56,560 bases of DNA from a virus. The position numbers and the translations under genes were made by a program. Positions 23,774 to 51,550 of the stretch are shown in pieces. The notes under the pieces are model-generated. The model saw only the letters and a program-made list of their open reading frames with translations. It had not been told where the DNA came from and ran no database searches. Within the stretch, counting starts at the first letter, position 1. Each line of letters opens with the position of its first letter. Location of the stretch: IMG/VR virus record IMGVR_UViG_3300020179_000002, positions 1-56,560 of that record; one strand, written 5' to 3'.

Positions 23774-25791
23774 TGGCTAAAGAGCGGTTGATCAATGGCG
23801 TCATCTACGAATTCCCGGACGATGCGAGAGACGCGACTATCGAGCGATTCGTGGCACGAAAGACCGGTAGCGCACAGGGCTGGACTCCGAAGACGCCAGT
23901 CAAGCGCGAAGAGCCGAATCTCTCCGGTATGCCTGCCGCATTCGCGCAGGGCCTTACGATGGGGTTCGCGGACGAAGCCATGGCTCGTGCTCGATCGCTC
24001 GGTGGTGGCGACTACTCGGATCTCGTCAAAGCCGAACGCGAATCACTCCGCAAGTACCAAGAAGAGCACCCGATAAAGAGCACATTGGCCGAGGTGGCCG
24101 GTGCAGCAGTCCCTGCAGTACTCACGGGTGGGGCGTCTTTGGCTCCACAAGTCCCGGCGAGATTGGCACCTAAACTCGCGCAGTTCCTCTTCGGCTCCTC
24201 CCCCTCGATCCCCAGAGCAATGGGGTACGGTGCGGGGCAGGGTGCGATCACCGCAGCTGGAACCACCGAGAAGCCACTGAGTGAACTTCCCGCCGAAATG
24301 ACCCGGGGTGCAGCACAAGGGTCGCTCTTCGCGGGTGGGCTAGGGGCGCTCGGCAAGTACGTAGTGATGCCCTCCTTCCGAGCGCTAAAGACCGCGATGG
24401 GATTCAGCGACGATAACAAAGCCGCAGACATTGTCATCGCCCGGGCACTTCAGCAGGACGGCAAGACTCCGGAGCAGGCACTCGCCACACTCCAAGCGGT
24501 ACAGCGTGGTGAAATGACCCTGGCCGACGTCGGGGAAGCCACCGCGAACCTGCTTCGTCGTGCCTCCCAGGCACCGGGACAGGCGAGAGATATAACCAAG
24601 AGCGCCCTCGTACAGCGCGAGGTAGGACGAGTCCCCCGGGTGTCCGATGACCTCCGCACCTTAATGTCGGGCAGCAAAGACTTCTACACCGACGTCCAGA
24701 ACCTGCTCGATTACAGGCGAAAATCGGCTAATGCGCTTTACACGGATGCGTGGTCGAATGCCCCCACATTCACCGCGCAGAATTCGCAAGATTTAGCTAA
24801 GCTCGCGAGTCTACCCTCGTTTAAAGAGGCGATGAAGGTCGGCCAGCGCCGGATGGAAGACCAAGGGATCGATATTTCGAATCCCCAAAACGTGCTCCGT
24901 GGGTTGCACGAGACGAAGCTCGCACTGGACGATCTGATCGCTGCACAGACGGACTCGATCACCCGTAAAGTGTCGCACCAGGGCGTGACCTACATGGACA
25001 TGCGGAACCGTCTCGTCCGCGAAATGGAGAAGCTTTCACCCCAGTACCGACAGGCAAGACTCCAGTACGCCGGGGATTCCGAGATGCTGGACGCCATGGA
25101 GAAGGGTAGACGCGTGTACCAGTCGCCTGAAATGATTATGCGGCGCGAGATCGCGGATTTCTCTCAGAATCCCTCGGTCTACGACGCTTACCGTGCTGGG
25201 ATCGCGCAATCGATGCTCGAAAGACTCCGCGCTGGGGGTGGTGCAGCGGACCCGCTACGGACTGTGTTCCCTAAGGATAGCGAAGCCAAAATACGGCAAG
25301 CGTTCAGGGACGACCGAGCATTCGACGAGTTCAAGAGCCGACTTCTCGAGGAATCTAAGATGCTCAACACCGAGAAAGCCGGGTTTCGACGGACTGCGAT
25401 CGACGCCGACCTCGACACCCAAGGAGCTTCAGGAGTGGGCGCTGCTCGTGCGCTCCTATCAGGAAGCCCGGTCCAAGCGGCGCTCGAAGCCCTCCGCGCA
25501 ACGTTCCCCCGGATAACTGGGATGCCGGAACAGACGGCACAATCTGTAGCGAGTAAGCTCACTACTCCGACCACGGGACTGGATCCGGTGATCGAGGGAA
25601 TCATGCGGAACCTGCAGGCTGAAGAGGCGGTGTTAAAATCCCAATCCGCTCTGGCGAACATTGGTGGAGCACTCGCCGGAAGTCAAGCGGCAGCAAGGAA
25701 GCCCACTCCTCAATACCCGGAGGACACCCAGGGACGCGAGGATGGGTCTCCGACTGATTCCTTGGGGTCTCCGTTGAGCTTGCAGAGGTAG
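23773..25791 (+). CDS. Internal virion protein, probable DNA-ejection protein
   Basis: A 672-aa protein, last gene of the late block. After ~50 polar residues it has a run of Gly/Ala-rich hydrophobic segments (AAFAQGLTMGFADEAMARA; EVAGAAVPAVLTGGASLAP; MGYGAGQGAITAAG; SLFAGGLGALGKYV), suggesting membrane insertion, followed by a long charged helical part. This two-part design is typical of injected podovirus proteins that line a channel through the cell envelope. The C-terminal 40 residues are polar and Pro-rich. Its TAG is followed by 500 bp of noncoding DNA. Confidence 0.6.
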   Translation: MAKERLINGVIYEFPDDARDATIERFVARKTGSAQGWTPKTPVKREEPNLSGMPAAFAQGLTMGFADEAMARARSLGGGDYSDLVKAERESLRKYQEEHPIKSTLAEVAGAAVPAVLTGGASLAPQVPARLAPKLAQFLFGSSPSIPRAMGYGAGQGAITAAGTTEKPLSELPAEMTRGAAQGSLFAGGLGALGKYVVMPSFRALKTAMGFSDDNKAADIVIARALQQDGKTPEQALATLQAVQRGEMTLADVGEATANLLRRASQAPGQARDITKSALVQREVGRVPRVSDDLRTLMSGSKDFYTDVQNLLDYRRKSANALYTDAWSNAPTFTAQNSQDLAKLASLPSFKEAMKVGQRRMEDQGIDISNPQNVLRGLHETKLALDDLIAAQTDSITRKVSHQGVTYMDMRNRLVREMEKLSPQYRQARLQYAGDSEMLDAMEKGRRVYQSPEMIMRREIADFSQNPSVYDAYRAGIAQSMLERLRAGGGAADPLRTVFPKDSEAKIRQAFRDDRAFDEFKSRLLEESKMLNTEKAGFRRTAIDADLDTQGASGVGAARALLSGSPVQAALEALRATFPRITGMPEQTAQSVASKLTTPTTGLDPVIEGIMRNLQAEEAVLKSQSALANIGGALAGSQAAARKPTPQYPEDTQGREDGSPTDSLGSPLSLQR

Positions 25792-25938
25792 CAAGCTATG
25801 TTAGTAGCCACCGGGGGTTTGAACGCCTCCGAGAGGCTCTCCTTGTGATTCTTATTTCGCACACCCGCATGAACCCTATCCCGGTGACGACCTATGTGGC
25901 CCGTGGAGCAGGGTTGCCGTCTGGAACCCCTTAGGACT

Positions 25939-26188
25939 GTTCCATTGTTCCATTACGGTGGAACAGAGATGGAACAGCCTACTGGCTCCGAGGCCCCGTC
26001 GGACGGACGTTCTGAGGCAGTGGTATTCCTGTTCCACTGTTCCATCCAATATATATACATATTCAGGTTCGAAAACACGAATAGTATACGTATATATGCA
26101 TGGAACAATGGAACAATTGCCGAGAGGCCTTGCGTGACGGGGGTTCTGGCCGTTCCATCTGTGTTCCATCATGATGGAACGGTGGAAC
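25939..26188. repeat. GTTCCA/TGGAAC palindromic array A (late-to-early boundary)
   Basis: Twelve 6-bp half-sites in three clusters. Cluster 1: GTTCCA at 25939 and 25947, TGGAAC at 25959 and 25970. Cluster 2: GTTCCA at 26031 and 26039, TGGAAC at 26101 and 26109, enclosing a ~56-bp AT-rich core with GGTTCGAAAAC and TATACGTATATATGCA. Cluster 3: GTTCCA at 26152 and 26163, TGGAAC at 26175 and 26183. Gaps between paired half-sites run 2,5 / 2,2 / 5,2, so the array is a mirror image about its centre. The remaining intergenic DNA (25792-25938) holds only a weak stem GCCTC-CGA-GAGGC at 25825-25837. Origin, packaging or boundary roles are possible. Confidence 0.9.
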
Positions 26189-26210: not shown

Positions 26211-26239
26211 TTGCGCTCCGGGGAGAGATGTATTATAAT
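26211..26239 (+). promoter_or_regulatory. Candidate sigma-70 promoter for the primase gene
   Basis: TTGCGC (26211-26216), 17-bp spacer, TATAAT (26234-26239), lying between array A and the primase gene. The leader then has ATAGAGGAAC, the motif shared by many early genes here. It would start transcription of the replication block. Confidence 0.6.
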
Positions 26240-26292
26240 TATACCAGCCCACTGAGGTGGTGTCAATAGTAATAGATAGAGGAACGTAAAGG

Positions 26293-30445: not shown

Positions 30446-31195
30446 ATGGCGAAAGCTAAATTATTAGTAACTACCACAAAGAGCGATGTTGATATTGTCA
30501 CTACGGACGCTCCTGAGTGGCTCCCGACCGGCATGACGCGGGGAACGGAGAACATCACGACGGACGACATGATCATTCCTCGAATCGAGGTGATTCAGGC
30601 GCTTTCCCCGGCGCGTAACAAAAAGGACTCCTCCTACATCGAAGGAGCCGAAGAGGGGATGCTGTTCAATAACGTGACCCGCGAGCTTTACGGCGAGTCG
30701 GTCACTGTGATTCCGGTGTTCTACACCAAGCAATACCTCATCTGGAAGGATCGAAAGCTCGGTGGCGGCGGCAGCAATGGCTTCCGGGGCGCATTCAACA
30801 CCCGCGAGGATGCACTGGCCGAGATCTCAAAGCTAGGTGAAGATGGGCTCGAAGCGATAGATACCGCGCAACACTTTGTGCTCGTGCATCACCTGGGGCA
30901 GGTTACCGAAGCTGTGCTTTCGATGAGCAAGTCGAAGATGAAGGTCAGCAAGCGTTGGAATTCGTTGGTGCGCATGACCAACATGGATTCGTTCGCTCGG
31001 GCTTACACGTTGTCTTCGGTCGAGGAGACCAACGCGCGGAACGAGTCCTATTACAATTTCAACATTGCACCGTTAGGATTCGTGAACAAATCGCTTTACG
31101 ATCGTGCGCTCCAGCTCTTCACCACGATCAAGTCCGGTGGCGTCAAGGTCAGCAACGATTACGATGCTGCCGATGTTGGTGAAACCGAGTACTGA
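30446..31195 (+). CDS. Putative ssDNA-binding or replication accessory protein
   Basis: A 249-aa protein with segments DDMIIPRIEVIQALSPARNK, EGMLFNNVTRELYG and VTVIPVFYTKQYLIWKDR, then MTNMDSFARAYTLSS and YYNFNIAPLGFV. The pattern occurs in phage proteins encoded beside polymerases and helicases; some have been called ssDNA-binding, but I cannot confirm an OB fold by eye. The stop overlaps the next start by one base (TGATG), coupling it to the UvrD-like helicase. Treat the binding role as tentative. Confidence 0.5.
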   Translation: MAKAKLLVTTTKSDVDIVTTDAPEWLPTGMTRGTENITTDDMIIPRIEVIQALSPARNKKDSSYIEGAEEGMLFNNVTRELYGESVTVIPVFYTKQYLIWKDRKLGGGGSNGFRGAFNTREDALAEISKLGEDGLEAIDTAQHFVLVHHLGQVTEAVLSMSKSKMKVSKRWNSLVRMTNMDSFARAYTLSSVEETNARNESYYNFNIAPLGFVNKSLYDRALQLFTTIKSGGVKVSNDYDAADVGETEY

Positions 31196-32616
31196 TGCAC
31201 GTCCGGGCCATCTACGGTCCTCCTGGCACCGGTAAGACCACGGAGTTGCTGCGGTTAGTGCAGCACACACGCGAGACCGGTGTCCAGGCCGAGCGGATAG
31301 CGTTTCTATCGTTCACTCGTGCAGCGGCGAGCGAAGCGTTATCCAGGCTCGGTCTGAAGCGGTCCGATAACGTATCGACGATTCACGCGATGGCGTTTCG
31401 CTCCCTAGGGTTGAAGCAAGCTCAGGTGGTGGACCATATCAAGCTGCGTGAGTTCTCCAAAGTCACCGGCATTCCGATCGTCGGCAAGTCCCCCGAGGAC
31501 GATGAAGAGCGCACCGACGGGGACGCTTACTTTGATCTTCTTAACTATGCACGAAACACCTTCAGTCACCCCTCCGAAATCTACGAGATTTCGGATCGTC
31601 CGGGCACTCGTGCAGAATACGAGATGTTCGTCTCCGCGTACGCTAACTGGAAGAAGACCTACGGTTATTACGATTTCACCGATATGCTTGAGCGAGCCAG
31701 TTCGGGAGTTATTCGACAAGGGATTGAGGTCCTTTTCGTCGACGAGGCACAAGACCTTTCACCTTTGCAGTGGCGTGTTATTGAGCGGCTCGCAAAACGC
31801 GCACATCAGGTCTTTGTCGCGGGGGATGATGACCAAGCAATATATGCTTGGTCGGGCGCTGATCCACACGGTATGGCAAAATTCTGCTCGAAGCATAAGG
31901 GTGATAGCGTTGTGCTCTCGCTCTCGCATCGACTTCCTGTTGCAGTGCACCAAAAGTCCCAGTCCCTCATTCGTCGAGTCCTTTTCCGCGTGGATAAGAA
32001 GTTCGATTCTTGTGGACGCTCAGGCACAGTACGGAACCATGGGTCAATGGCGTCGGTTGATGTTGAACATGGCGAGGATACGCTGGTTTTGGCACGGACG
32101 CATTCAATTATGCGCGAGGCTGAAAACGCGCTTATCGACCGCCGCATCCCCTATGTTCGCGAATCGGGCCGTCCGGGAATGTTCCAGAATCGGTACGCCG
32201 TTGGCCTTCGATCCTACAACAAGATTCGTAACGGAAAACGTCTATCAGACTCTGATCGATCGGCTCTCTTTGCAGTGGGATCAAGGGAGACAAAGGCAGC
32301 GCTTGAAAGAAACGATTACATGGCAGTCGTGGCATCCCCCTTCTATATCGCGATCGAAATGCCACACCGCGTTATCGATTACTACCAGGAGGTCGACATC
32401 GATGTGGAGCCGACTATACGACTCTCCACTATTCACGCAGCTAAGGGCCATGAGGCGAATCGCGTCATTGTACTTACGGATATGACGAACCGCGTGGCGG
32501 ATAATGCGCACACTAAGCCCGACGATGAGATCCGGGTGTGGTACGTGGCGTTGACGCGCAGCAAAGACGTGTTAGATATCGTGGAGGGCTACAATGGCTA
32601 TAACCTAGATAATTGA
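31195..32616 (+). CDS. UvrD/Rep-like superfamily 1 DNA helicase
   Basis: A 473-aa SF1 helicase: Walker A GPPGTGKTT (8-16), motif Ia FLSFTRAAA (~37-46), Walker B FVDEAQD (181-187), motif III VAGDDDQAIYAWSGA (~208), motif IV LSHRLP, motif V IHAAKGHEANRVIVL and motif VI VWYVALTRSKD near the C-terminus. It is shorter than cellular UvrD (about 720 aa) and lacks room for full 1B and 2B subdomains, which is common in phages. It should unwind DNA 3' to 5' in replication or repair. The next operon's promoter overlaps its stop. Confidence 0.92.
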   Translation: MHVRAIYGPPGTGKTTELLRLVQHTRETGVQAERIAFLSFTRAAASEALSRLGLKRSDNVSTIHAMAFRSLGLKQAQVVDHIKLREFSKVTGIPIVGKSPEDDEERTDGDAYFDLLNYARNTFSHPSEIYEISDRPGTRAEYEMFVSAYANWKKTYGYYDFTDMLERASSGVIRQGIEVLFVDEAQDLSPLQWRVIERLAKRAHQVFVAGDDDQAIYAWSGADPHGMAKFCSKHKGDSVVLSLSHRLPVAVHQKSQSLIRRVLFRVDKKFDSCGRSGTVRNHGSMASVDVEHGEDTLVLARTHSIMREAENALIDRRIPYVRESGRPGMFQNRYAVGLRSYNKIRNGKRLSDSDRSALFAVGSRETKAALERNDYMAVVASPFYIAIEMPHRVIDYYQEVDIDVEPTIRLSTIHAAKGHEANRVIVLTDMTNRVADNAHTKPDDEIRVWYVALTRSKDVLDIVEGYNGYNLDN

Positions 32617-32641
32617 CAGATAATCCCACGAGTGATATAAT
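32613..32641 (+). promoter_or_regulatory. Strong sigma-70 promoter for the Z-genome operon
   Basis: TTGACA (32613-32618), 17-bp spacer, TATAAT (32636-32641) with extended -10 TGA just upstream. A CATAGAGGACTTA leader with a ribosome binding site follows. It should drive the SSB-like, polymerase, purZ, mazZ, 71-aa, datZ and zinc-ribbon genes as one transcript. Confidence 0.85.
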
Positions 32642-32668
32642 AGACCCTTCACCACCATAGAGGACTTA

Positions 32669-32944
32669 ATGAAACAGTACGACAACACCAATTCCGGTCT
32701 GCTGATGCGGAATGAAAATCGGACCACAGACTCGCACCCCGAGTTCACTGGATCGCTCAACGTTGAAGGTCGCGACTTCTGGGTCTCGGCCTGGGTCAAC
32801 ACTGGCAGACCCGGGTCCAAGATCGAGGGGAAGCGCTACTTCTCGATTAAAGTCACGCCGAAGGACGCTTCGAACCGTGCCAACACGGGTCGCAAGAACG
32901 CGGCGACGGATTTCGACGATATAGACGACGATATCCCATTTTGA
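32669..32944 (+). CDS. Small SSB-like protein with SSB-type acidic tip
   Basis: A 91-aa protein. The body (NSGLLMRNENRTTDSHPEFTG, GRDFWVSAWVN, KRYFSIKVTP) resembles a small OB-type family frequent in phages. Its end, DFDDIDDDIPF, is almost the same as the C-terminal tip of bacterial SSB, which docks replication proteins. I infer that it binds ssDNA or mimics the SSB tip to recruit host or phage replication factors. Its TGA overlaps the polymerase ATG (TGATG in frame shift), so the two are coupled. First gene of the Z operon. Confidence 0.65.
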   Translation: MKQYDNTNSGLLMRNENRTTDSHPEFTGSLNVEGRDFWVSAWVNTGRPGSKIEGKRYFSIKVTPKDASNRANTGRKNAATDFDDIDDDIPF

Positions 32945-34782
32945 TGAACATCCCACGCATTGACGGCCAAATCCCCTACTTGGTGGTGGACACCGAAACC
33001 ACCGGCCTGAAGTGGTGGGAGGATGAGGTATTCGGAGTCTCGATCGCACTTCCCGACGGCACCGCCGGGTACTGGGATGTACGGGCGACGCCGAAGATCC
33101 TGAATTGGTTAAGCGACCTTATCGCCGAAGATCGGGTCGGGGTGTGGGTCGGGCATAATTTCAAGTTCGACCTGCACTTCCTGCGTGAAGCTCGGGTGAG
33201 AATTCCGACCGACCGGATCGATTGCACGATGATTCGGGCGGCGCTAATCAACGAGCATGAACCGACCTACGGGCTGGATTTCTTGGCGCGGAAATACGTT
33301 GGGGCGCAGAAGGACACGGAGATCTACGATGAACTGGCAAAGATATTTGGGGGTCGTGCTACACGCAACGCGCAGATGCCGAACATTTCACGCGCTCCTC
33401 AAGAGGTCGTGGCGCGGTATGCAATCCAGGACGCGGTAGTCACGCGAAAGCTTTATTTGTGGCAGCGCGACGAGATCGAGAAGCAGAACTTGCATCGAGT
33501 CCATAATCTCGAGCGCGAACTAATGCCCGTCATTATCGACATGGAGACCGAGGGTGTGCGGGTCGACGTCGATATGGCCGAGAGAGCCTCCCGACACCTC
33601 ACGAAGCGCATCAACGACATGCAGCGGGACTTGAATACGGAGGCCGGGTTCGAGATCAACCCGAACCCCTCCGGATCGATCGCGGAGCTATTCAAGCCGA
33701 CCCTAGGGGAAGACAATGAGTGGTACCTGATCGACGGGACCCGGGCAGGGAAGACTGATGGCGGAAAGGCATCAATCGACGCCGATTGCTTGCGTCGTAT
33801 GAAGCACCCAGCGGCGAGCATGATCCTCGATCTCCGCAAAATGCTCAAGACCCGCGACACTTTCATTCAGGGCCATATCCTCGGACACCAGCAGGACGGG
33901 GTGATACACTGCAACTACAACCAGACCAAGAACGATGCGGAGGCTGGGACCGGCACCGGGCGGCTCTCGATCACGAATCCAGCGCTGCAGCAAATCCCGT
34001 CGCGGGACGTATCGATCAAATCGCTCGTGCGCCCGATCTTCAAGGCGGACCACGGCGCGAAATGGCTTGGGCTCGACTGGTCGCAGTTCGAATTCCGGGT
34101 GGCGAATCACTACGGGCAGGTGCCGTCGATCCTGGAAGCTTACCGGGCGAATCCGAATTTGGATTTCCACCAGTTGGTGTCCGACATGACCGGTATTCCC
34201 CGGAACGCGCAGTACGCCGGGGGTCCCTCCTCGAAGGCGATTAATCTCGGGCTTGCTTTTAATATGGGCTCCGGGCGACTGGCCCAAGAGTGTGGACTCC
34301 CCTACACCGAGGAGACGGGGCCGAACGGGAACGCGTACCTGAAGGCGGGACCCGAGGCGATGGAGCTTTTCGAGCGATACCACGCCGCGAACCCCGGGAT
34401 GCGGAACATGGCGAGCAAGGCGAGTTCGATCGCCAAAGAGCGCGGGTTTGTGCACTCGATCATGGGGCGGCATATCCGATTTCCGGGTGGGCAATTCGTC
34501 CACAAGGCGTCGGGACTGATTTACCAAGCGACGTCGGCCGATTGCATGAAGATGAAGCTCATTGAACTGCACCGCTACTTAACCGGTCACGGGGTGGGGC
34601 GGCTGCTGTTGTCCGTGCACGACGAGGTCGGGATCTCGCTCGATAAGGATTCGCTGAATCACGCCGAGAAGATCGCGCAGATTTACACTACGTTTAACGG
34701 TATCGATTGCCCGATCAAGCTCCGGGTACCGATTACCTGTGATTGGGGCTTGGGTGAAGACTGGTACGAGGCAAAAGGATGA
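32944..34782 (+). CDS. dpoZ: DNA polymerase, PolA family with 3'-5' exonuclease (DpoZ-type candidate)
   Basis: A 612-aa family A polymerase. Exonuclease: Asp16/Glu18 (VVDTET), HNFKFD (71-76), YAIQD (Y159, D163), all present. Polymerase: motif A LGLDWSQFEFR (Asp378), motif B with Lys431 in SSKAINLGLAFNMG, motif C HDE (559-561). There is no 5' nuclease domain. Motif B ends FNMG where cellular Pol I has YG. Immediate linkage to purZ, mazZ and datZ places it with DpoZ enzymes, which favour 2-aminoadenine over adenine. That preference is inferred from context, not visible. Start is ATG overlapping the SSB-like stop; TTG at 32941 is unlikely. Confidence 0.9.
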   Translation: MNIPRIDGQIPYLVVDTETTGLKWWEDEVFGVSIALPDGTAGYWDVRATPKILNWLSDLIAEDRVGVWVGHNFKFDLHFLREARVRIPTDRIDCTMIRAALINEHEPTYGLDFLARKYVGAQKDTEIYDELAKIFGGRATRNAQMPNISRAPQEVVARYAIQDAVVTRKLYLWQRDEIEKQNLHRVHNLERELMPVIIDMETEGVRVDVDMAERASRHLTKRINDMQRDLNTEAGFEINPNPSGSIAELFKPTLGEDNEWYLIDGTRAGKTDGGKASIDADCLRRMKHPAASMILDLRKMLKTRDTFIQGHILGHQQDGVIHCNYNQTKNDAEAGTGTGRLSITNPALQQIPSRDVSIKSLVRPIFKADHGAKWLGLDWSQFEFRVANHYGQVPSILEAYRANPNLDFHQLVSDMTGIPRNAQYAGGPSSKAINLGLAFNMGSGRLAQECGLPYTEETGPNGNAYLKAGPEAMELFERYHAANPGMRNMASKASSIAKERGFVHSIMGRHIRFPGGQFVHKASGLIYQATSADCMKMKLIELHRYLTGHGVGRLLLSVHDEVGISLDKDSLNHAEKIAQIYTTFNGIDCPIKLRVPITCDWGLGEDWYEAKG

Positions 34783-35894
34783 AGAAAATCGATTTGGTCA
34801 TTGACCTTCAATTCGGTAGCACAGGTAAGGGGTTGATAGTTGGCACCCTCGCCACCTACGAGGGCTACGACACGGTGATTACCGCGTGGGCACCCAACGC
34901 GGGGCATACGTTCATTGATGCCCGAGGGCGAAAGTTCGTACATACGCATCTGGCCAACGGCATTGTAGCCCCCTACCTTCGTAGGGTACTGTTGGGTCCA
35001 GGCTCGGTCATCAATCCGGCGCAGCTCCTGGCCGAGATCGAGCAGTGCAAGGATATAATCGAGGCAAAGCAGATCAAGATCATGATTCACCCGCATGCAG
35101 CGGTGGTGACTGACGAGCACTTGGAAGAGGAGGCGCAAAGCATGACGGCGATCGGCTCGACCAAGAAGGGCGTGGGCGCGGCGATGATCTCCCGAATCCG
35201 TCGGCAGCCGAACAAACCGGCCGTCGCGAAGGATTTCTTGGAACTCGTAAATCTGGTGTGCACCACCGAGCAGTACACGCGAGCGATCCACGATTCGACC
35301 CATATCCTAATCGAGGGTGCACAGGGTGTGGGGCTTTCCATGTACCACGGCTTTTACCCCTACACCACCTCGCGGGACGTCAGCACCTTCCAGATCCTGG
35401 CCGATTGTGGAATCCCGGCGGCGATCTTCAATCAGGCCTCCTGTCGTGTGGTTGGCACCGCGCGGACCTACCCGATCCGGGTGGCCAATCGATTCGATTC
35501 GGAAGGGCGACAGGTGGGCTTCAGTGGGCCGGGACACCTGGACCAGACCGAGATTTCGTTCGAGCAGATCGGCCAGCCGACCGAACTCACCACGGTGACC
35601 AAGCTCCCCAGGCGCATTTTTACATTCAGTCGCCAGCAGATCCTCGAGGCGATCGACCTTTCGGGCGCGAGTGAAGTGTTCCTGAACTTCGCGAATTATG
35701 TGCAGGACGAACAGTACCTGTTATCGATCGTGAACGCGATCGAGGAGACCGGGGCTCGAATTAAATGGCTGGGTCTAGGTCCAGATATTCACTCGGTGGT
35801 GTTAATGTCCGAAGGTGATAACTACACGGCGCGGCGCAAAGAGATCGTGTCGAAATGGCAGCGTTACCGATTACGCAACAAAGCAGGAGCTTAA
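34779..35894 (+). CDS. purZ: PurZ, (2-amino-deoxy)adenylosuccinate synthase
   Basis: A 371-aa PurA-family enzyme, shorter than bacterial PurA (about 430). The P-loop-like region reads LQFGSTGKG (residues 10-18): Ser14 stands where PurA has its catalytic Asp (GDEGKG). This exchange is the reported mark of PurZ, which condenses dGMP with aspartate to make the precursor of 2-aminoadenine. Other family motifs are kept: NAGHT (His43), GSTKKGVG (126-133), GAQGVGLSM (180-188), YPYTTSRD (193-200). ATG overlaps the polymerase stop (ATGA). Host PurB and kinases would complete dZTP synthesis. Confidence 0.93.
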   Translation: MKKIDLVIDLQFGSTGKGLIVGTLATYEGYDTVITAWAPNAGHTFIDARGRKFVHTHLANGIVAPYLRRVLLGPGSVINPAQLLAEIEQCKDIIEAKQIKIMIHPHAAVVTDEHLEEEAQSMTAIGSTKKGVGAAMISRIRRQPNKPAVAKDFLELVNLVCTTEQYTRAIHDSTHILIEGAQGVGLSMYHGFYPYTTSRDVSTFQILADCGIPAAIFNQASCRVVGTARTYPIRVANRFDSEGRQVGFSGPGHLDQTEISFEQIGQPTELTTVTKLPRRIFTFSRQQILEAIDLSGASEVFLNFANYVQDEQYLLSIVNAIEETGARIKWLGLGPDIHSVVLMSEGDNYTARRKEIVSKWQRYRLRNKAGA

Positions 35895-35897
35895 CTC

Positions 35898-36416
35898 ATG
35901 GCGAATGAATTTATAATGAACTCGTTACTTCATACCAACGAGCAAAACCCCCTCCCCTGGTCCACTCACCCAGATAACGACTCGGTGGTGGTAGATGCCA
36001 ACGGCGCGGCGGTCGCGAACTTCGAGGTGAGGCACCAACACAAGGGGGTACTCGCGAATTGCGAGAAGAATGCAGACTTGGCTGTGCGATCCGTTAACGC
36101 ATTCGCCAAGCGCGGAGGGGCAGATATCCGGCGGCTGCAGCACGTGGTGACCACTTGGGCGGACGAGGTGTTCCCGAATAGACAGACACCTGACATTCTG
36201 CTTAAGCTCTACGAGGAGGTGGGTGAGTACGCCCGTAACCCGAAGGCTGCGGCAGAATTTGCCGATATAATGATTTTGCTGCTCGATCTAGCGGCGATTA
36301 ACGGTATCGATATTCAAAAGGCAGTAACCGAAAAAATGGTAATCAATGTCGGACGTACTTGGGCCGTGGACTCTCAAACCCGTATTATGAGGCATACACA
36401 TGATGAAAAACCGTAA
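35898..36416 (+). CDS. mazZ: MazZ-type MazG-like nucleotide pyrophosphohydrolase (DUF550)
   Basis: A 172-aa protein. Residues ~80-155 form a MazG-like helical domain of DUF550 type: VTTWADEVFPNR, LYEEVGEY (E106, E107, E110) and EFADIMILL (E120, D123), the full EExxE...ExxD metal site, then MVINVGRTW. In Z phages such enzymes turn dGTP into dGMP, the substrate of PurZ. Residues 17-70 form a separate N-terminal segment (NPLPWSTHPDNDSVVVDANG) seen on other phage MazG-like proteins. SD GGAG precedes the start. It lies 3 bp after purZ, which makes the MazZ role likely. Confidence 0.88.
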   Translation: MANEFIMNSLLHTNEQNPLPWSTHPDNDSVVVDANGAAVANFEVRHQHKGVLANCEKNADLAVRSVNAFAKRGGADIRRLQHVVTTWADEVFPNRQTPDILLKLYEEVGEYARNPKAAAEFADIMILLLDLAAINGIDIQKAVTEKMVINVGRTWAVDSQTRIMRHTHDEKP

Positions 36417-36615
36417 TGAAGTATTCGAGATTTGGTATACTCGCCGATTCGGCGAATTATTAGGTGAACAGGACTCGCACACCAGAGAGTTCGTGCGAGA
36501 GATATGGAATCAGGCGCTCAGTCGTGCCGTGGACCACTTCGAGTTCGAGAACTTCGAACCACTTGAAAGTGGGCAGATCATCGACCGACTCGAGCGCCTT
36601 AAAGCGATAAGGTGA
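36400..36615 (+). CDS. Unknown 71-aa protein inside the Z operon
   Basis: A 71-aa charged helical protein (FEIWYTRRFGELLGEQDSHT... then RLERLKAIR) overlapping the mazZ end by 17 bp and ending just before datZ. TGAGG lies 7 bases before the first ATG. No metal-binding, nucleotide or membrane motif is seen. Its fixed place between two Z-pathway enzymes suggests a partner or regulator of one of them, which is inference only. Confidence 0.65.
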   Translation: MMKNRNEVFEIWYTRRFGELLGEQDSHTREFVREIWNQALSRAVDHFEFENFEPLESGQIIDRLERLKAIR

Positions 36616-36620
36616 CCAGG

Positions 36621-37169
36621 ATGGGTCTTTCTCTAGCTGAACAACTCCGTGCTTCGCACGTCAAACGGTGGCAGATCGTCAACGTCTCGCGCACTCAGAA
36701 TCTTGCGGAGCATCATTTTAACGTCACCCTCATCGTCGGTCAACTCGCTCGACACTGCAGGGACAAGCAGCTGCTCGATCCCCAGTACGCGTTGAGGCTC
36801 ATGCACTGGTCGCTCTCGCACGATATGGTCGAGGTTCGCACAGGGGACACCCCTACGCCCTACAAGCGGGTGCTGAAGCAGGTGGGTGGATTGGACATCA
36901 TCGACAATTCCGAGGAGGTCGTGGACCCGGGGTACATCGCCGACAAGCGTCGGATCGCTGGGACGCCGATCGAAATGTACGTGGAGATCGCGGACTTGAT
37001 CGAGGCGATTTGGTTCCTGCATGACCACGGGATCGGGCAGAACGCACTCAAAGTTCAATCGGGTCTTGAGGCGTCGCTCGACCGCTGTGTGCAGAAGTGG
37101 CATGGGGTTTTCGAGGAATTAGATATTGATTTCGCGGTGCGCTGCGTGAGCGAGGAGATCGGAATATGA
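36621..37169 (+). CDS. datZ: DatZ-type HD-domain dATP triphosphohydrolase
   Basis: A 182-aa HD-domain phosphohydrolase. Ligands are visible: His31/His32 in NLAEHHFNV, His67-Asp68 in SHDMVEV, and Asp125 in EIADLIEA. The opening RWQIVNVSRTQNLAEH resembles YfbR-like nucleotidases. In Z phages DatZ removes dATP (to deoxyadenosine and triphosphate), so that dZTP is used instead. I chose ATG 36621 with SD AAGGTGA five bases upstream; a GTG at 36612 would add three residues. The gene is next to purZ and mazZ, which supports DatZ rather than a general nucleotidase. Confidence 0.88.
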   Translation: MGLSLAEQLRASHVKRWQIVNVSRTQNLAEHHFNVTLIVGQLARHCRDKQLLDPQYALRLMHWSLSHDMVEVRTGDTPTPYKRVLKQVGGLDIIDNSEEVVDPGYIADKRRIAGTPIEMYVEIADLIEAIWFLHDHGIGQNALKVQSGLEASLDRCVQKWHGVFEELDIDFAVRCVSEEIGI

Positions 37170-37366
37170 AATGCGTAAAATGTGGCGGTATCACCCAGGT
37201 CACGACCGTGTACCAAAACGCGGATGGTGGAACGCGTCGTCGCAGGGCATGCACGGTCTGCCAATTCCGGTTCACCACTCGCGAGTACCCGTCGATTACG
37301 GATCCGAAGCTCAAAGAGTACTACTTGGAGACGGATGTTGACACGGATACCCCGCCCGTGGTATAA
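37166..37366 (+). CDS. NrdR-like zinc-ribbon protein
   Basis: A 66-aa protein with Cys3-x2-Cys6 and Cys29-x2-Cys32 and the phrase GTRRRRACTVCQFRFTTRE, the DNA-binding zinc ribbon of NrdR, the bacterial repressor of ribonucleotide reductase genes. The ATP-cone that senses nucleotides in full NrdR (about 150 aa) is absent; the tail is short and acidic. The start overlaps the datZ stop (ATGA). It may bind NrdR boxes without ligand control and shift host dNTP supply, or regulate the phage. Family match is good; the role is inferred. Confidence 0.75.
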   Translation: MKCVKCGGITQVTTVYQNADGGTRRRRACTVCQFRFTTREYPSITDPKLKEYYLETDVDTDTPPVV

Positions 37367-37367
37367 T
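37338..37367 (+). promoter_or_regulatory. Sigma-70 promoter for the HDAC-like gene
   Basis: TTGACA (37338-37343), 18-bp spacer, TATAAT (37362-37367) with extended -10 TGG. It overlaps the end of the zinc-ribbon gene. A CATAGAGGAACTTA leader precedes the ATG at 37397. Confidence 0.8.
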
Positions 37368-37396: not shown

Positions 37397-38227
37397 ATGA
37401 CCCCGATTTTTTACAATCTCCGCCAGTCCTGCGACTTCGACTTTCCGTCTTATCGCAAGATCCCGATGTTCGTGCGACAGGCCGCGCGACCACTGCTCAC
37501 CGATTTTGAACCGTTGAAGAACGTCGAGATAATCGCCGCGCATTCAATTAAGTACGTGGTGAATGTGTTCTCGGGCAAGACCCCCAATGGATTCGGAAAT
37601 ACCGACCCGGTGCTTAACGAGACACTCAGGTACACGAATGCGAACTTCGTGGCTGCGACCCGGCACGTCAGCGAAAAGAAAGCGGAGGTTGCATGCTCAG
37701 CGACCCAGGGCTTCCACCATGCGGGGTTCGACTCCGGGGGCGGGTATTGCACATTCAACGGGTTGATGATCGCGGCGCTCGGCAGCGAAGCGATCAGACC
37801 GGCGCTAATCTTCGACGGTGATGGCCACTACGGGGATGGGACGGACGATGTCATTGGGGCGCTGGCCACGCACGACCGAGTGCGGCACGTGACGAATCTA
37901 GATATGCGATCGTTCGTCTCGCGCTACAAGCCAAACGCTCATGATTGGGAAGTGTGGGCCTCCGGCTTGATTTCGTCGTCGAAGCCTAGTATAATAATGT
38001 ACCAAGCCGGTGCTGATGCATGGATCGAGGACCCTTATGGTGCTGGGTACCTCACTCTTGAGGGTCTGCGAAATCGTGACCTCGGGATCTTTCGCGCAGC
38101 CAGGAAGTCTAAGATCCCTCTCGTGTGGAATCTCGCCGGTGGATACTGCAAAGATGTTCAGCGCACGGTAGACGTGCATATTCAGACACTCAGAGCCAGC
38201 GACGAGGTGTATTATGGCGGGACCTAG
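37397..38227 (+). CDS. HDAC / acetylpolyamine amidohydrolase-like deacylase
   Basis: A 276-aa protein of the zinc-dependent histone deacetylase superfamily. The active site is intact: His107-His108 (GFHHAG), GGYCTFNG, zinc ligands Asp142 and His144 in DGDGHYGDGTD, Asp207 in YQAGADAWIEDPYG, the LTLEGLRNRD helix, and Tyr250 in NLAGGY. It is shorter than bacterial relatives (about 310-370 aa). It may remove acyl groups from a protein, polyamine or other small molecule. It has its own promoter directly after the Z operon. The substrate cannot be told from sequence. The stop overlaps the next gene by 14 bp. Confidence 0.88.
   Translation: MTPIFYNLRQSCDFDFPSYRKIPMFVRQAARPLLTDFEPLKNVEIIAAHSIKYVVNVFSGKTPNGFGNTDPVLNETLRYTNANFVAATRHVSEKKAEVACSATQGFHHAGFDSGGGYCTFNGLMIAALGSEAIRPALIFDGDGHYGDGTDDVIGALATHDRVRHVTNLDMRSFVSRYKPNAHDWEVWASGLISSSKPSIIMYQAGADAWIEDPYGAGYLTLEGLRNRDLGIFRAARKSKIPLVWNLAGGYCKDVQRTVDVHIQTLRASDEVYYGGT
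37967..37995 (+). promoter_or_regulatory. Possible promoter inside the HDAC-like gene
   Basis: TTGATT (37967-37972), 17-bp spacer, TATAAT (37990-37995), 219 bp before the 882-aa gene. It lacks the shared ATAGAGG leader. It could be chance in a coding region. Confidence 0.35.
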
Positions 38228-40862
38228 CAAAGCACTCACATTCTTGGACCTTATGAATCAAGTCGGGGCTGGAACTCGCATGATAGCGAATATCCCGGGG
38301 GCGAAGCGCATCCCGGAATCTTTCGCCAGAGCGCAGAAAGGGCTAAGCCCTGATGAAATCATCGAGCAGTATAACATGAAGGAGATGTTCGGGAGAGATC
38401 AGAAGACGGGAGTGGTAAGACTATTAACACAGTCTCCGGGCTATTCATCTTCCTCGTTGCCCGCGAACGATCGAGCACGGATGGCGCGAGGAAAGCTGCC
38501 GCTAGAAAGTAAAATAACACAGCAGGTGGTAGACCCCTCGAATCCAAGGAACATTTTGTCACAATTTGAGTTGAAGCCTGACCGAGATTTAGCCACCGGT
38601 AGTTATGCCGACGAGCTTTACCGCCGGATGTACGATCGTGCCGAGAATGCGCAACGGGCGAAAATCGTTCCGGATGATGTCGGTGTGTACGATATCGGGG
38701 CGCTGAATGCTGGTCGGTTAGGAGGTGAGGGGTTCGGTGCCATGCAGTATGCGGCACTCTACGACCAACTTCGTGCCGCAGGAGCTTTTTCAGGTCCCAC
38801 GGGACTCACTGATATTAACGAGTTGCGCAGGCTGGGTAACGTGATGTCCTACGGTCTGCGACACGGCGATTACGAGAACATCGCTCCGGTCGTGAGCGCG
38901 TGGGGTCGATCGCCTCAATTATTTCATCGTGCAGAACAAACGGACTGGCTGGCTCGCCCCTTGATGGACATCTTGCAGCAGGGTAAAGGCGATCCGATTT
39001 TCGACGCAGCGGTGGCATTGAAACCCGTGGACTTGGCTAACATGACACCGGACCAGATCACCGGGGTGCTAGGCCTGAAAGAAGCGCAGTTAAATCGTAT
39101 CGCAGGTCCGGTACGTGAACCGATCATGCTCGAGGCGGCGGATCCGGGTCTGCTTCGTCATTTGGCGGTCCCCGCACTCACCGACCCCAACGCCTACGGC
39201 ATCCAGAAGGGCATTGGCCCCAACACCCTGGGCCGTGCGGCGACGGTGGAGCAGCTGATCGAGAAGATCCTCGCGGGTCGTACCGGAGAGGAAGCAGCGG
39301 AGGAGATTCTTAATCAGTCCAAACGTCGCGGGATGAATCTAGAGGAAGGATTCAAGGGTAGATACAAAGACGGTGGATCGGTCGCTTTATTCTCCGGGGG
39401 TGGTGGGGTGAAAAAGACCGTGGCTGAGATGGCTGCGGAACTCGCGGCTAAAAGCACGAAGACCCCTGATATGTCTAGGCGTAAATTCATGTCTCTTGGT
39501 AATGTGTTTAACTCGCCGACCTCGACACCTAATCTGCCAGTGACCGCCACCGAAGCGGCGAAGATGTCGCAAGACCCAGCGTCATCGGCTATCGAGAAAA
39601 TAACGGAGGCTCCCGTCTCCAGACGGCAGGTACTCCAAGGCGCTTTGGCGCAGGGTGCGCAACGAATGCTACCTACCGCAGCGATGCAGCCCGTCAAAGA
39701 TGTAGCATCTGAATTTGCGAAATCGATGATGAGACATGTTCCGGCACCCTCTATCGGTGGGTTAGTAGCGCAAGGACTGAAGATGGGAATGGGTGATTAT
39801 GAAATCATGCGATTCGTGCAGTCCGCGATGCCAGAGGCAGACCCCAAAAAGCTAGCCTACGACATATCTTTATTGCCTGACATTATGCGAAATCCATCGG
39901 AATACGTCGAAGATCCGGATTGGCAAATGATGCATGATAAATTCGTCGGCGACGAAAGTCTGATGAATGTTTTCGGGCGGCTGGTGACTCCTTATAAAGT
40001 CGATTCTCCGATGAGTCTTCGCCGCACAATGCGTGAGATTAAAGATATCAATCCCAATAAATACGGTGAATTGAAGTCGATAGCTCGTGATATTTTTCAT
40101 TCCTCAAATCCTAACGCGGGGAACCATGATTATTCCGGCGGCGGTAAAGTAACGAAGACCGTGGCTGAAATGGCTGCGGAACTCGCGGCTAAAGGTACCA
40201 AAACCCCTGATATGTCCAGGCGTAAATTCATGTCTCTAGGTAGTGTGTTTGACTCACCAACCTCGACGCCTAATCTACCGGTGACCGCTACTGAAGCAGC
40301 AAAGATGTCGCAGGACCCAACATTATCGGCCATCGAGAAAATAGCGGAAACTCCCGTTTCTAGACGACAAGTGCTTCAGGGTGCTTTAGCTCAGGGTGCA
40401 CAACGAGTGCTACCTGGGATCTCGCCTACCAGTGCTCTATCACGTGCTATTGATGCGGCCACTAGCGCACCACAAACAGCAAGCACCATCCCGGGTCTTG
40501 TGGCGCAGGGTTTAAACATGAAGCTTAAAGGGCAAGAATTGGTCGACTTTGTAAATCGTTCGATGCCACCGAGCGACGTTCATACTCCAAAATCGCTCAA
40601 GTTTACGACGGAACTCCTAGCTTCCAACATCAAAAGGCCTGAACCCTATATCGACATGTACTATGATTATGACCCTTCTTCGATTCGTTTACAAATCCTC
40701 ACCGATCAGTTGTTTCCCGAAGCTAAGAGGCCACCAAGCGGAATGGGTTTGCGACCGACGTTGCGCGAGATTCAAGAGTATAATCCCAAAGCGTATGATA
40801 AGCTCGTAAAATCAGCGACTACACTCAGGGATCAAATCGCCAAGGATCTCGAAGATGACTAA
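38214..40862 (+). CDS. Modular 882-aa protein with duplicated Tat-motif-like repeat
   Basis: Not assigned to a known family. Residues 1-390 are a mixed soluble region. Then come YKDGGSV and a module of about 88 residues starting KKTVAEMAAELAAK, with PDMSRRKFMSLG and PVSRRQVLQGALAQ, followed by variable helical regions. The module recurs 247 residues later. A similar module is in the late protein at 49502. Both SRR phrases look like twin-arginine signals but are internal. Both variable parts close with a LRRTMREI or LRPTLREI phrase plus NPxKY/AY. It may be a packaged, injected polyvalent protein. Role unknown. Confidence 0.6.
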   Translation: MAGPSKALTFLDLMNQVGAGTRMIANIPGAKRIPESFARAQKGLSPDEIIEQYNMKEMFGRDQKTGVVRLLTQSPGYSSSSLPANDRARMARGKLPLESKITQQVVDPSNPRNILSQFELKPDRDLATGSYADELYRRMYDRAENAQRAKIVPDDVGVYDIGALNAGRLGGEGFGAMQYAALYDQLRAAGAFSGPTGLTDINELRRLGNVMSYGLRHGDYENIAPVVSAWGRSPQLFHRAEQTDWLARPLMDILQQGKGDPIFDAAVALKPVDLANMTPDQITGVLGLKEAQLNRIAGPVREPIMLEAADPGLLRHLAVPALTDPNAYGIQKGIGPNTLGRAATVEQLIEKILAGRTGEEAAEEILNQSKRRGMNLEEGFKGRYKDGGSVALFSGGGGVKKTVAEMAAELAAKSTKTPDMSRRKFMSLGNVFNSPTSTPNLPVTATEAAKMSQDPASSAIEKITEAPVSRRQVLQGALAQGAQRMLPTAAMQPVKDVASEFAKSMMRHVPAPSIGGLVAQGLKMGMGDYEIMRFVQSAMPEADPKKLAYDISLLPDIMRNPSEYVEDPDWQMMHDKFVGDESLMNVFGRLVTPYKVDSPMSLRRTMREIKDINPNKYGELKSIARDIFHSSNPNAGNHDYSGGGKVTKTVAEMAAELAAKGTKTPDMSRRKFMSLGSVFDSPTSTPNLPVTATEAAKMSQDPTLSAIEKIAETPVSRRQVLQGALAQGAQRVLPGISPTSALSRAIDAATSAPQTASTIPGLVAQGLNMKLKGQELVDFVNRSMPPSDVHTPKSLKFTTELLASNIKRPEPYIDMYYDYDPSSIRLQILTDQLFPEAKRPPSGMGLRPTLREIQEYNPKAYDKLVKSATTLRDQIAKDLEDD
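39411..39674 (+). repeat. 264-bp module, copy 1
   Basis: Encodes the KKTVAEMAAELAAK to RMLP block. It is highly similar to 40152-40415, offset exactly 741 bp (247 codons), so in frame. A more distant copy is at about 50783-51066. Confidence 0.85.
40152..40415 (+). repeat. 264-bp module, copy 2
   Basis: In-frame second copy of the block at 39411-39674, encoding PDMSRRKFMSLG and PVSRRQVLQGALAQ again. Most changes between copies are at third codon positions, consistent with duplication followed by purifying selection. Confidence 0.85.
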
Positions 40863-48140: not shown

Positions 48141-49512
48141 TCCGCACAATTTCTCGGAGTTCGTTTCCGAGATGAACGATCAAGAGGTGGTGGAGCTTTA
48201 TTACGACTGGCCGACCTGGGCTCGACCCAATCAAGTAGTCCCTCCTGGCGAGGATTGGACGATCTGGCTCATTCTTGCCGGTCGTGGGTGGGGAAAGACT
48301 CGGTGTGGCGGTGAATTCGTACGGTTCCACGTGGAACAAAAGCTCGCTTCACGCGTCGCGCTGATCGCTGAAGACGCGGGGGACGCCCGGGACGTGATGA
48401 TTGAGGGTGAGTCCGGGCTGCTGGCCATTTCGCACCCCTCTAACCGCCCGAATTGGGTGCCGTCCAAGCGCCGACTTGAGTGGCCCAACGGGGCGATCGC
48501 GACCATTTACTCGGACAACGATCCCGAGACGCTTCGCGGTCCGCAGCACGACCTGTTCTGGGTCGACGAACTCGCCAAGTTTCGCAACGCAAAAGAAATG
48601 TGGTCGAACCTGATGTTCGGCCTGCGTCTCGGCCAACGTCCGCGCGGTGTCGTCACCACGACGCCCAAGCCGATTCCGATCGTGCGGGAGCTGCTCGAAA
48701 ACCCGCGCGTATTCGTCACTTCAGGGACCACGCATGAGAATTTCGGAAACCTCGCCCCTACCTTTCGTGATGAAATCATCGCCCAGTACGAGGGAACTCG
48801 ACTCGGACGTCAGGAGCTTTACGCCGAGGTTATCGACCCGGAAGATTACGGAATCGTCAAGCGCGAGTGGTTCAAGCTTTGGGACTCCGATCGGCCATTC
48901 CCCGATTTCATGTATATTGTGCAGTCCTACGATTGTGCTTACACCGAAAAAACTATCAATGACCCGACCGCATGTTCTGTCTGGGGAGTGTTCAGGCCGA
49001 GCGAAGATTCACCTTTATGCGTGATGCTCATCGACTGCTGGGAGGAGTTTCTCGCCTACCCCGATCTGCGCCCTCGGGTGGTGAACGAGTACAAAGAGTC
49101 CGTGTACGGCGAACCCGGTAAAAAGACCGATTTGGTGCTGGTCGAGGAGAAAGCCTCAGGCATTTCGATCCTCCAGGACCTGCGCTACGCCGGGGTGCCT
49201 TGCCGTGGCTACAATCCGGGCAGAGCGGACAAGGTCCAGCGGCTGCACATTGTGGCGAACATCATCGCTTGTGGCCGAGTCTACATCCCCGAATCGGTCG
49301 TGCACCGGGGGCAGCCGCGTGACTGGGCGGAAAAGCTCGTCTCCCAGATCTGCTCTTTCCCCGAGGCCGAGCGCGACGATTTGACCGACACCACCACGCA
49401 AGTGCTCCGGCTGTTGAAGGACATGGATTTCTTGCGCATCGACCCGGCCGAAGTCGCGCCGGATTACTACGACGACGAGCGTCCACGCAGGGTGAACCCT
49501 TATGCCCAATGA
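48070..49512 (+). CDS. terL: Terminase large subunit
   Basis: A 480-aa packaging ATPase and nuclease. Walker A is GRGWGKTR (71-78), Walker B LFWVDE (162-167), then a TTTPKP coupling motif (197-202). The nuclease half shows Asp288 in SYDCAYTEK, VEEKASG (~345) and DDLTDTT (~437), as in the RNase H-like fold of TerL. I take GTG 48070 as start, with GAGGG five bases upstream; TTG 48058 is an alternative. It overlaps terS and the next gene. Length is normal for podovirus TerL. Confidence 0.95.
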   Translation: MIDLPSDYRRSPSQRYKAKKTPIDPHNFSEFVSEMNDQEVVELYYDWPTWARPNQVVPPGEDWTIWLILAGRGWGKTRCGGEFVRFHVEQKLASRVALIAEDAGDARDVMIEGESGLLAISHPSNRPNWVPSKRRLEWPNGAIATIYSDNDPETLRGPQHDLFWVDELAKFRNAKEMWSNLMFGLRLGQRPRGVVTTTPKPIPIVRELLENPRVFVTSGTTHENFGNLAPTFRDEIIAQYEGTRLGRQELYAEVIDPEDYGIVKREWFKLWDSDRPFPDFMYIVQSYDCAYTEKTINDPTACSVWGVFRPSEDSPLCVMLIDCWEEFLAYPDLRPRVVNEYKESVYGEPGKKTDLVLVEEKASGISILQDLRYAGVPCRGYNPGRADKVQRLHIVANIIACGRVYIPESVVHRGQPRDWAEKLVSQICSFPEAERDDLTDTTTQVLRLLKDMDFLRIDPAEVAPDYYDDERPRRVNPYAQ

Positions 49513-51550
49513 TCTTCTTAAAACAGTTGGCGACTACCTCAACCCCGAGGACCTGCTCACCCTGGCCGGGCCGCTGGCCGGGTTCAAGCCCACGGCCGGG
49601 ATCACCGCCGCGTTGTACGCACCGAGCCTGAACGAAAACGAGGCCGAGGAGTTGGACAAGCTCCGCGCGATGCGCCCTCCCGCCGCTGCTCCACGTGAAA
49701 CAGCACAGAGTCCTGAAATGCGCGATTTCGTGAATAGGCTTCGGTACGAGCAATTCGTGGGAGACCTGCGCAAGCAGTACGGACAGCACGCCGATCTCAT
49801 GTTACAAGGAATCATCAAGCAGGGGTTGCAGGACGAGGCGCAACAGGCCCGGATGACCGGTCCACGCGCCAAGCCCCCCGCCCCTCCCGCTGCACGGCAC
49901 GAGGCGACCGTACCCGAAGGGCGGTTCCGCAGGTACGCCGAGGGCGGCATGATCGAGCACATGACGCCGGATTTCTCCGACGGTGGTCGAATGATTTACT
50001 CCGACTCGCTCGATTCCTACTCTGGGGGTGGTGGCGTCAAGGGGAAGACCGTGCAGCAGATGGCGGACGAACTAGTTACTAAAGGCATCAAGGTGGGCGT
50101 TGCGCCTCCGAGAAGGGGTACCGCTGCACCGATAGTACAAGCTCCGAAGCTTCCGATGTCCGCGCAGGAGATGCAAGCGATTCGGGAAGGATCTGTCCGT
50201 AATCTAAAATCCCTCGGGGAGTCGGTAGATCGAGAAGTGCGCAAAGTGCGTCGTATGGATGAACTTGGCAAACCCGGAGCCAGTGCAGGTACAATTCCTG
50301 CTCCACAGAACGCCAACGTTACAGGGTGGCACATAACCTCCGATTTTCCAGGAATTCTGAAAACCGGGGCGATGACTAATCGAGACGTAGGGGTGAATAA
50401 CCTTCAAGGCCACCCACCGGCACATGTTGGTGGAGCGTATTTCTATTCTGACCCACGGTTGGCGTTGAACAAACGTGACGAGCTATTGGAAATGGTCGAC
50501 TACGACCCGGATTACGCCGCAGAGATTCCGATCTTGCGAGCACAGTTGAGACAAGGAAATCGTTTGGTCTCCGATGAGGATGTAGGATTAAATATCCCTT
50601 GGCAGAGGTCATTCGAGGAGGGTAGCTTCGCGACAACGCGACCGGTTTTGTTAAATCAGATCGACCGAATTTACGCTGAAAACCCCGATGTGATCAAAGA
50701 TATCATTCGAGACACTGTGGTGCGGCAGCGGCGCTACAGAGACGGGGGGTCAGTCCAGGGATTGTCGAAAGGTGGTGACGCGAAAAAGACCGTACAGCAG
50801 ATGGCGGACGAGTTGCTCACCAAAGGCCTGAAGACCCCGGACCTGTCCAGGCGTGGCTTTATGCGACTGCCCGATCTTGGTGGCCCCAAGGAGTCGAAGC
50901 TCCCGATACCCGCCAAAGACATGGAGCGTTACCAGACCGAGAAGACCACGGTGAACCCCCTGTCAGGTTCGGTGGAGAAGGTGGTCGAAAAGGTCGCACA
51001 AACGCCGATGTCCAGGCGTCAGGTGCTACAGGGTGCACTCGCCCAAGCCGCGCAAAGGGTGATGCCCTCCGTGGCCATGCAGCCCGTGAAGGATATGGCA
51101 CAATCGGTAGCACAAGAGGTCGCGCAGACTGTGGCTCCGAAGGCCTCGCCCACTATGGGTGGTCTGGTCGCTGAGGCTCTAAGGATGGGTCTTGACGAGA
51201 ATCAAGCCGTAGAATTCGTACATTCGATGTTACCGGGATCGACAAAGAAGATGGTCGCGGATCATCTTGATTACATGTACCCAGTGATGAAAGATCCGTT
51301 TGATGTGCTGAGTCACGAGGTGGAATACGCTTTGGAGTCTGCCGACGACGTGGATCTCGCGTTTGATGCCGGTAAGCCCGTGTTGGGTTCGCCTGTTAAA
51401 ATTCTAGGCGACATGATCTCGCCCAGCGTAAGCCACAAGGGAATGAATCTTCGGCCGACATTGCGCGGTATACGTCAGGCGAACCCAGAAAAGTACGACG
51501 AGATTATGCAAGCGGTTAGAGACGCGGCTGAATATTTGTACGAGCCCTAA
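49502..51550 (+). CDS. Modular 682-aa protein with Tat-motif-like module and possible ART-like region
   Basis: Lies between terL and portal. Residues ~145-185 contain YAEGGMI, FSDGGRM and YSGGGGV, and a KTVQQMADELVTK segment. Residues ~275-400 have GWHITSDFPGILKTGAM and GGAYFYSDPRLAL, the outline of an ADP-ribosyltransferase-like fold, though catalytic residues are not certain. From ~427 comes a module like that of the 882-aa early protein (KKTVQQMADELLTK, PDLSRRGFMRL, PMSRRQVLQGALAQ), ending in LRPTLRGIRQANPEKY. It is likely a packaged or injected protein. Function not established. Confidence 0.6.
   Translation: MPNDLLKTVGDYLNPEDLLTLAGPLAGFKPTAGITAALYAPSLNENEAEELDKLRAMRPPAAAPRETAQSPEMRDFVNRLRYEQFVGDLRKQYGQHADLMLQGIIKQGLQDEAQQARMTGPRAKPPAPPAARHEATVPEGRFRRYAEGGMIEHMTPDFSDGGRMIYSDSLDSYSGGGGVKGKTVQQMADELVTKGIKVGVAPPRRGTAAPIVQAPKLPMSAQEMQAIREGSVRNLKSLGESVDREVRKVRRMDELGKPGASAGTIPAPQNANVTGWHITSDFPGILKTGAMTNRDVGVNNLQGHPPAHVGGAYFYSDPRLALNKRDELLEMVDYDPDYAAEIPILRAQLRQGNRLVSDEDVGLNIPWQRSFEEGSFATTRPVLLNQIDRIYAENPDVIKDIIRDTVVRQRRYRDGGSVQGLSKGGDAKKTVQQMADELLTKGLKTPDLSRRGFMRLPDLGGPKESKLPIPAKDMERYQTEKTTVNPLSGSVEKVVEKVAQTPMSRRQVLQGALAQAAQRVMPSVAMQPVKDMAQSVAQEVAQTVAPKASPTMGGLVAEALRMGLDENQAVEFVHSMLPGSTKKMVADHLDYMYPVMKDPFDVLSHEVEYALESADDVDLAFDAGKPVLGSPVKILGDMISPSVSHKGMNLRPTLRGIRQANPEKYDEIMQAVRDAAEYLYEP

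Follow-up and report, generated by a model that had tools for sequence, protein, structure and literature searches.

A 56,560-nucleotide stretch of DNA from an uncultured virus of bacteria (IMG/VR record IMGVR_UViG_3300020179_000002, positions 1 to 56,560; the whole stretch is called the window here) very probably carries a functional cassette of the PurZ-DatZ-MazZ-DpoZ type for making 2-aminoadenine (Z) DNA, served by one strong host-type promoter. The window is likely to be a complete genome, as its bases 1-127 recur at 56434-56560 as 127-bp terminal repeats; no tRNA gene was found in its 56,560 nucleotides. The cassette is a compact, co-directional unit at 32613-37366. A sequence-only reading of this DNA had proposed a single promoter followed by these genes, and each gene it named lies at the place and in the order that it gave, behind a perfect sigma-70 match:

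32613-32641, + strand: promoter of the Z unit, TTGACA-N17-TATAAT, 12/12 match to sigma-70, with TG before the -10 box (extended -10)
32669-32944, + strand: protein like single-stranded DNA-binding protein (SSB), 91 amino acids, acidic DDDIPF tail
32944-34782, + strand: DpoZ, family-A DNA polymerase with 3'-5' exonuclease, 612 amino acids from the ATG
34779-35894, + strand: PurZ, succino-2-amino-dAMP synthetase, 371 amino acids
35898-36416, + strand: MazZ (MazZ-1 type), predicted dGTP pyrophosphohydrolase with an N-terminal extension, 172 amino acids
36400-36615, + strand: orf71, small predicted three-helix protein, 71 amino acids
36612-37169, + strand: DatZ, HD-domain dATP triphosphohydrolase orthologue, 185 amino acids, GTG start
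37166-37366, + strand: NrdR-type zinc ribbon, 66 amino acids

The genes are tightly coupled. The SSB stop codon and the DpoZ ATG at 32944 overlap as TGATG, DpoZ and PurZ overlap by 4 bp, PurZ and MazZ are separated by 3 bp, MazZ and orf71 overlap by 17 bp, and the orf71/DatZ and DatZ/ribbon junctions are 4 bp each. A search of IMG/VR for PurZ returned 68 loci, and about 50 loci or contigs, which we regard as independent, carry the Z cassette in identical gene order. All cassette genes are under purifying selection among close relatives, with ratios of nonsynonymous to synonymous substitution (dN/dS) of 0.00-0.20. Because the order is the same in so many independent contigs and selection is this strong, the cassette is not a chance assembly of genes. 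The identities proposed earlier for DpoZ, PurZ, MazZ and DatZ are borne out by the agreement of curated models, the PurZ tree, substrate and metal residues, and conserved synteny.

PurZ scores 330.7 bits against the curated NCBIfam model NF038379 (cut-off 300) and matches the phiVC8 PurZ structure 6fm1 (1.5e-82). In the tree it falls within PurZ proper, in a clade with phiVC8, S-2L and SH-Ab 15497 (support 100/99) that leaves cellular PurA and actinophage PurZ0 outside, as the sequence-only reading had proposed to check. Within this clade it lies closer to SH-Ab 15497 than to phiVC8 (99/97), in a subcluster of environmental sequences only (91/96). Residues of the cassette enzymes were mapped one by one against published work (PMC8342488, PMC8065100, PMC8599892). 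PurZ has Ser (S14) where PurA has its catalytic Asp. It retains the dGMP pocket, V235 as the gate that excludes ribose, the TTVT loop, and N303, F304 and N306, which bind adenine. Three pocket residues of S-2L PurZ differ here, with F for Y21 and N for Q308, both as in phiVC8, and T for C204; the others are kept. Another IMG/VR locus, G002 (IMGVR 3300020183_000104), has a single in-frame TAA inside the matched PurZ stretch at 24931-26043. Separately, conjugative plasmids of Rhizobium and Agrobacterium (L210, L211 and L294:8449-10062) encode a PurA homologue that is extended at its N-terminus and whose catalytic Asp is replaced by Ser (QFGSEGKG). It adjoins AbiJ-like and UvrD/AAA genes in a defence-island-like setting, and PADLOC gave no match at these plasmid loci.

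DpoZ scores 802.8 bits against NF038380 (cut-off 500). Its start is most likely the ATG at 32944 overlapping the SSB stop codon rather than the mechanically called TTG at 32941, from which its residues are numbered here. The proofreading triad D17/E19/D77, the TGR motif at 339-341 and the HD dyad at 560-561 are present. The signatures L455/F459/G548 of the phiVC8-like clade are kept as L436/F440/G525, as are its insertions, the third of which is shorter, and the position of S583 is Glu, likewise in SH-Ab 15497 and PSA28. MazZ matches PF04447 (30.1 bits, cut-off 23) and has the full MazZ-1 set, in which E35, E38, E50, D53, I56, D60 and R83 of S-2L correspond to E107, E110, E120, D123, I126, D130 and R153. 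The metal ligands would be E107, E110, E120 and D123, and the guanine contacts I126 and D130. Its gene stands between those for PurZ and DatZ as in Z-cluster phages, and this position is conserved in relatives. A further Pfam match among the Z-unit proteins is PF12917 (41.7 bits, cut-off 25.9). The SSB-like protein matches the SSB family phrog_7364 (2.4e-14) and aligns with the SSBs of SH-Ab 15497, PSA28 and phiVC8.

By homology to characterised enzymes, MazZ would convert dGTP to dGMP. PurZ would then form succino-2-amino-dAMP from dGMP and aspartate at the expense of (d)ATP. The Z triphosphate (dZTP) would be completed by PurB and nucleotide kinases of the host, DatZ would remove dATP, and DpoZ, aided by the SSB, would copy the genome with dZTP opposite T. 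The phage DNA made in this way would have Z:T pairs held by three bonds and would evade restriction directed at A. From these genes we infer, on good grounds, that the virion DNA would contain Z throughout. The strong promoter consensus might offset the harder melting of Z:T pairs. In the part of the genome that was scanned, there are eight extended -10 sigma-70 promoters with 11-12 of 12 matching positions, all preceded by TG (26238-26266 on the minus strand, and 32613, 37338, 41153, 42101, 43111, 44105 and 45555). A decayed or repurposed cassette, in which PurZ and its partners work in general purine metabolism and the virus has normal DNA, is very improbable given the replacement of the PurA Asp by Ser, the PurZ-specific loop, the V235 gate, the DpoZ signatures and the strong purifying selection.

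Several observations weigh against a complete and working Z system. A close DpoZ homologue occurs in phiJL001, a phage without Z genes (PMC8599892), and DpoZ by itself is therefore no proof of Z selectivity. Among the phage records searched (50,697), no isolated member of the lineage was found: the window PurZ had no match of at least 60% identity among the 204 records with a PurZ- or PurA-like match, and hence that collection holds no isolate of the lineage. The third observation concerns DatZ. The sequence-only reading had held that all active-site residues that could be checked are present, which is so for PurZ, MazZ, DpoZ and the remaining DatZ sites but not for the counterpart of S-2L K116, which is E125 in the window (GAG, 36984-36986). 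In S-2L this Lys is reported to bind the triphosphate and to be strictly conserved among the close homologues aligned (PMC8065100).

The GAG codon is common to all 21 near-identical loci of the window's clade, which come from other metagenomes although some overlap the same contig, and an assembly error is thereby ruled out. Lys occurs in 41 of the 42 other DatZ sequences aligned, including those of sister clades of the lineage. Because E125 is fixed in a species-level clade, dATPase activity is less certain, and the identity supported by the DatZ sequence is that of an orthologue. The family match is otherwise good (S-2L DatZ structure 6zpa, 3e-15; the dATP triphosphohydrolase family phrog_7076, 9.5e-27). 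R19, W20, I22, H34, H70, D71, E74, P83, K85 and D128 are conserved, so that the S-2L metal ligands, R19, W20, I22 and K81 all have their counterparts. With these other substrate and metal residues intact and a dN/dS of 0.07-0.16 among close relatives, DatZ is maintained as an enzyme, one that may have shifted its handling of substrate.

If the dATPase activity were instead largely lost, the DNA could be an A/Z mosaic, or dATP might be removed mainly by PurZ and excluded by the selectivity of DpoZ. This is unlikely. In its favour, beyond the fixation of E125, S-2L PurZ is known to consume dATP and the S-2L cluster gave only partial substitution in E. coli (PMC8342488), and phiVC8 DpoZ needs dZTP at levels one to two orders of magnitude below dATP (PMC8599892). 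The retained residues and low dN/dS of DatZ argue the other way, and further positions that differ in the window's clade, including residue 89, which is Lys here and Glu or Arg in most, may compensate for the charge reversal. The charge reversal provides a specific biochemical handle on which part of the cassette truly excludes adenine.

The Z module is exchanged between viruses as a block that extends upstream of the promoter and includes the helicase gene as part of the exchanged replication module:

30446-31195, + strand: Pam3 gp34-like protein, upstream end of the shared module (PF23977, 3.4e-65), 38-44% identical in PSA28, SH-Ab 15497, phiVC8, Bm1 and BUCT555
31195-32616, + strand: UvrD/PcrA-like helicase directly upstream of the Z unit (phrog_1967, 9e-79), with a homologue at the matching place in SH-Ab 15497 and PSA28

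The stretch that runs from the gp34-like and helicase genes to DatZ resembles its counterpart in the siphoviruses SH-Ab 15497 and PSA28. By virion genes its closest described relative is MW202545 (Caudoviricetes sp., Manatee Spring), a complete genome that shares the capsid (90%), portal (59%), terminase (47%) and most tail genes but has no PurZ, DpoZ, deacylase or other replication gene of the window; it gave no match to any window protein between 22.2 and 48 kb. That a virus with a 90%-identical capsid has none of the Z module is the basis for block exchange, which fits the horizontal spread of Z machinery argued previously (PMC12884076). PurZ and DpoZ occur in an identical 17 of 32 records that share the portal, most of the others being fragments. 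Kindred virions with and without the module offer a natural comparison in which the cost and benefit of Z-DNA are testable in one virus type. The major capsid protein (628-1542) stands apart in its 90% identity to the Z-less MW202545, as the remaining matched virion proteins reach only about 25-63%.

The virus belongs to an unreported, widespread lineage, probably of podoviruses. The SU10-type adaptor (PF24175) and the portal that connects head to tail support this morphology without proving it, within a virion gene set that is classified in part. A GroES-like co-chaperonin (PF00166) lies near the capsid genes at 54461-54892 and is annotated also in MW202545 and Caulobacter phage RW. Two window proteins of 882 (38214-40862) and 682 amino acids (49502-51550) have a common KTVxxMAxEL motif (family D3), present twice in each.

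Two or three conserved genes around DatZ go beyond the recognised Z enzymes. Orf71 keeps its place in the lineage with a dN/dS of about 0-0.02, and its model is reasonably confident (predicted local distance difference test score, pLDDT, 83), but it had no match in Pfam, PHROG, PDB or BFVD and no fold match. Nor did comparison relate it to the small genes next to MazZ or DatZ in phages OH and phiVC8. Additional genes in relatives between orf71 and DatZ, or between ribbon and deacylase, are small variable open reading frames, among which reading by eye recognised no nucleotide enzyme. The ribbon (PF22811, 31.7 against 27.2) has two CxxC pairs and mostly retains the motif CxxC...TTYQN...RRRxCxxC..RFTTRE in 42 orthologues. 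It lacks the ATP-cone of NrdR and reaches only 21.9 against the 124.65 of the NrdR equivalog model TIGR00244, and is thus an NrdR-type ribbon rather than NrdR. The interval 32613-37366 of the earlier reading holds all of its genes, but the gene block runs on past its end:

37338-37367, + strand: second promoter, TTGACA-18-TATAAT, perfect, overlapping the end of the ribbon gene
37397-38227, + strand: zinc deacylase of the histone deacetylase (HDAC) fold, 276 amino acids (PF00850, 4.4e-21)

The deacylase is predicted to be active, as residues H107/H108, D140/D142/H144, D207 and Y250 are invariant in 30 relatives, and its model (pLDDT 92.9) matches Vibrio cholerae HdaH (E 3e-16). A direct action on the PurZ product is ruled out, because the succino group is attached through an amine and not an amide bond. 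So is a polyamine deacetylase (cluster 4) role, since the protein has ATQGFHH and AGGY instead of the RPPGHH and EGGY of bacterial polyamine deacetylases (PMC11532494). Nor does the deacylase identify the host: its nearest bacterial copies (L214-L216, 43-47%) come from a mixture of metagenome-assembled genomes, whose fetched stretches contain none of the other window genes, and the wider set includes many Burkholderiales.

The ribbon follows DatZ in 51 of the 68 PurZ loci, and the deacylase gene comes next in 49 of these; the two exceptions (L015 and L055) are mutually similar. The deacylase is also found in 16 of the 17 portal-sharing records that bear PurZ. Together with its absence from the complete, Z-less MW202545 and its invariant catalytic residues, this could suggest a larger functional unit in which ribbon and deacylase have accessory Z-DNA functions, such as nrd regulation that shifts the host dNTP supply, or de-acylation of a host protein or small molecule for Z-DNA replication or transcription. 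In one stretch without detected Z genes (L110), a deacylase-family gene has ribonucleotide reductase genes on one side and ThyX/thymidylate kinase genes on the other. However, the window deacylase has its own promoter, no copy was found next to the Z genes in other Z lineages (phiVC8, S-2L and SH-Ab 15497 included), and the L015/L055 subclade keeps the Z genes without it. Fifteen remoter Z loci have DpoZ and PurZ, and mostly MazZ and DatZ too, without ribbon or deacylase. Related viral deacylases (34-36% identity) lie in stretches of contigs where no Z genes were detected, and the tie to Z is therefore statistical and within one lineage. Linkage by shared descent accounts for it equally well, and descent alone may be the whole tie. 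We found no literature linking Z phages to deacylases. An enlarged unit is quite unlikely. Slightly less likely still is the specific reading of the two as new Z-DNA parts, with a ribbon that redirects the deoxynucleotide supply of the host and a deacylase that acts on a host protein or metabolite limiting Z-DNA replication or transcription.

Among solved structures, HdaH (bacterial classical deacylase cluster 5b) is nearest to the deacylase in fold and sequence, yet identity is 22-23% and the phage protein is shorter. Cyanophage S-2L has PurZ, MazZ-1 and DatZ in the same order and with the same residues, but PrimPol replaces DpoZ and its DatZ retains K116. The podoviruses phiVC8 (Vibrio) and ZP6 (Alteromonas) have DpoZ, PurZ, MazZ and DatZ, with PurZ identities of 47% and 42%. 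They differ in having a gene annotated as primase or integrase between DpoZ and PurZ, in genome size (38-39 kb against 56.4 kb) and in their separate PurZ clade (98/97), and phiVC8 MazZ is of the MazZ-2 type, not MazZ-1. The closest modules are those of SH-Ab 15497 (Acinetobacter), whose dZTP pathway has been elucidated experimentally (PMC12884076), and PSA28 (Pseudomonas), in which gp34-like protein, helicase, DpoZ (47%), SSB, PurZ (46%), MazZ and DatZ occur in nearly identical order. In these siphoviruses, which have another virion type, the SSB follows DpoZ instead of preceding it, MazZ carries an additional domain at its N-terminus that makes it longer (in SH-Ab 15497 this is DUF5664, PMC12884076), and orf71, ribbon and deacylase were not found in the stretches read. 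The kind of Z system in the window is thus already known, and what the window adds is a large, as yet unisolated lineage of predicted Z-DNA viruses, represented by about 50 contigs.

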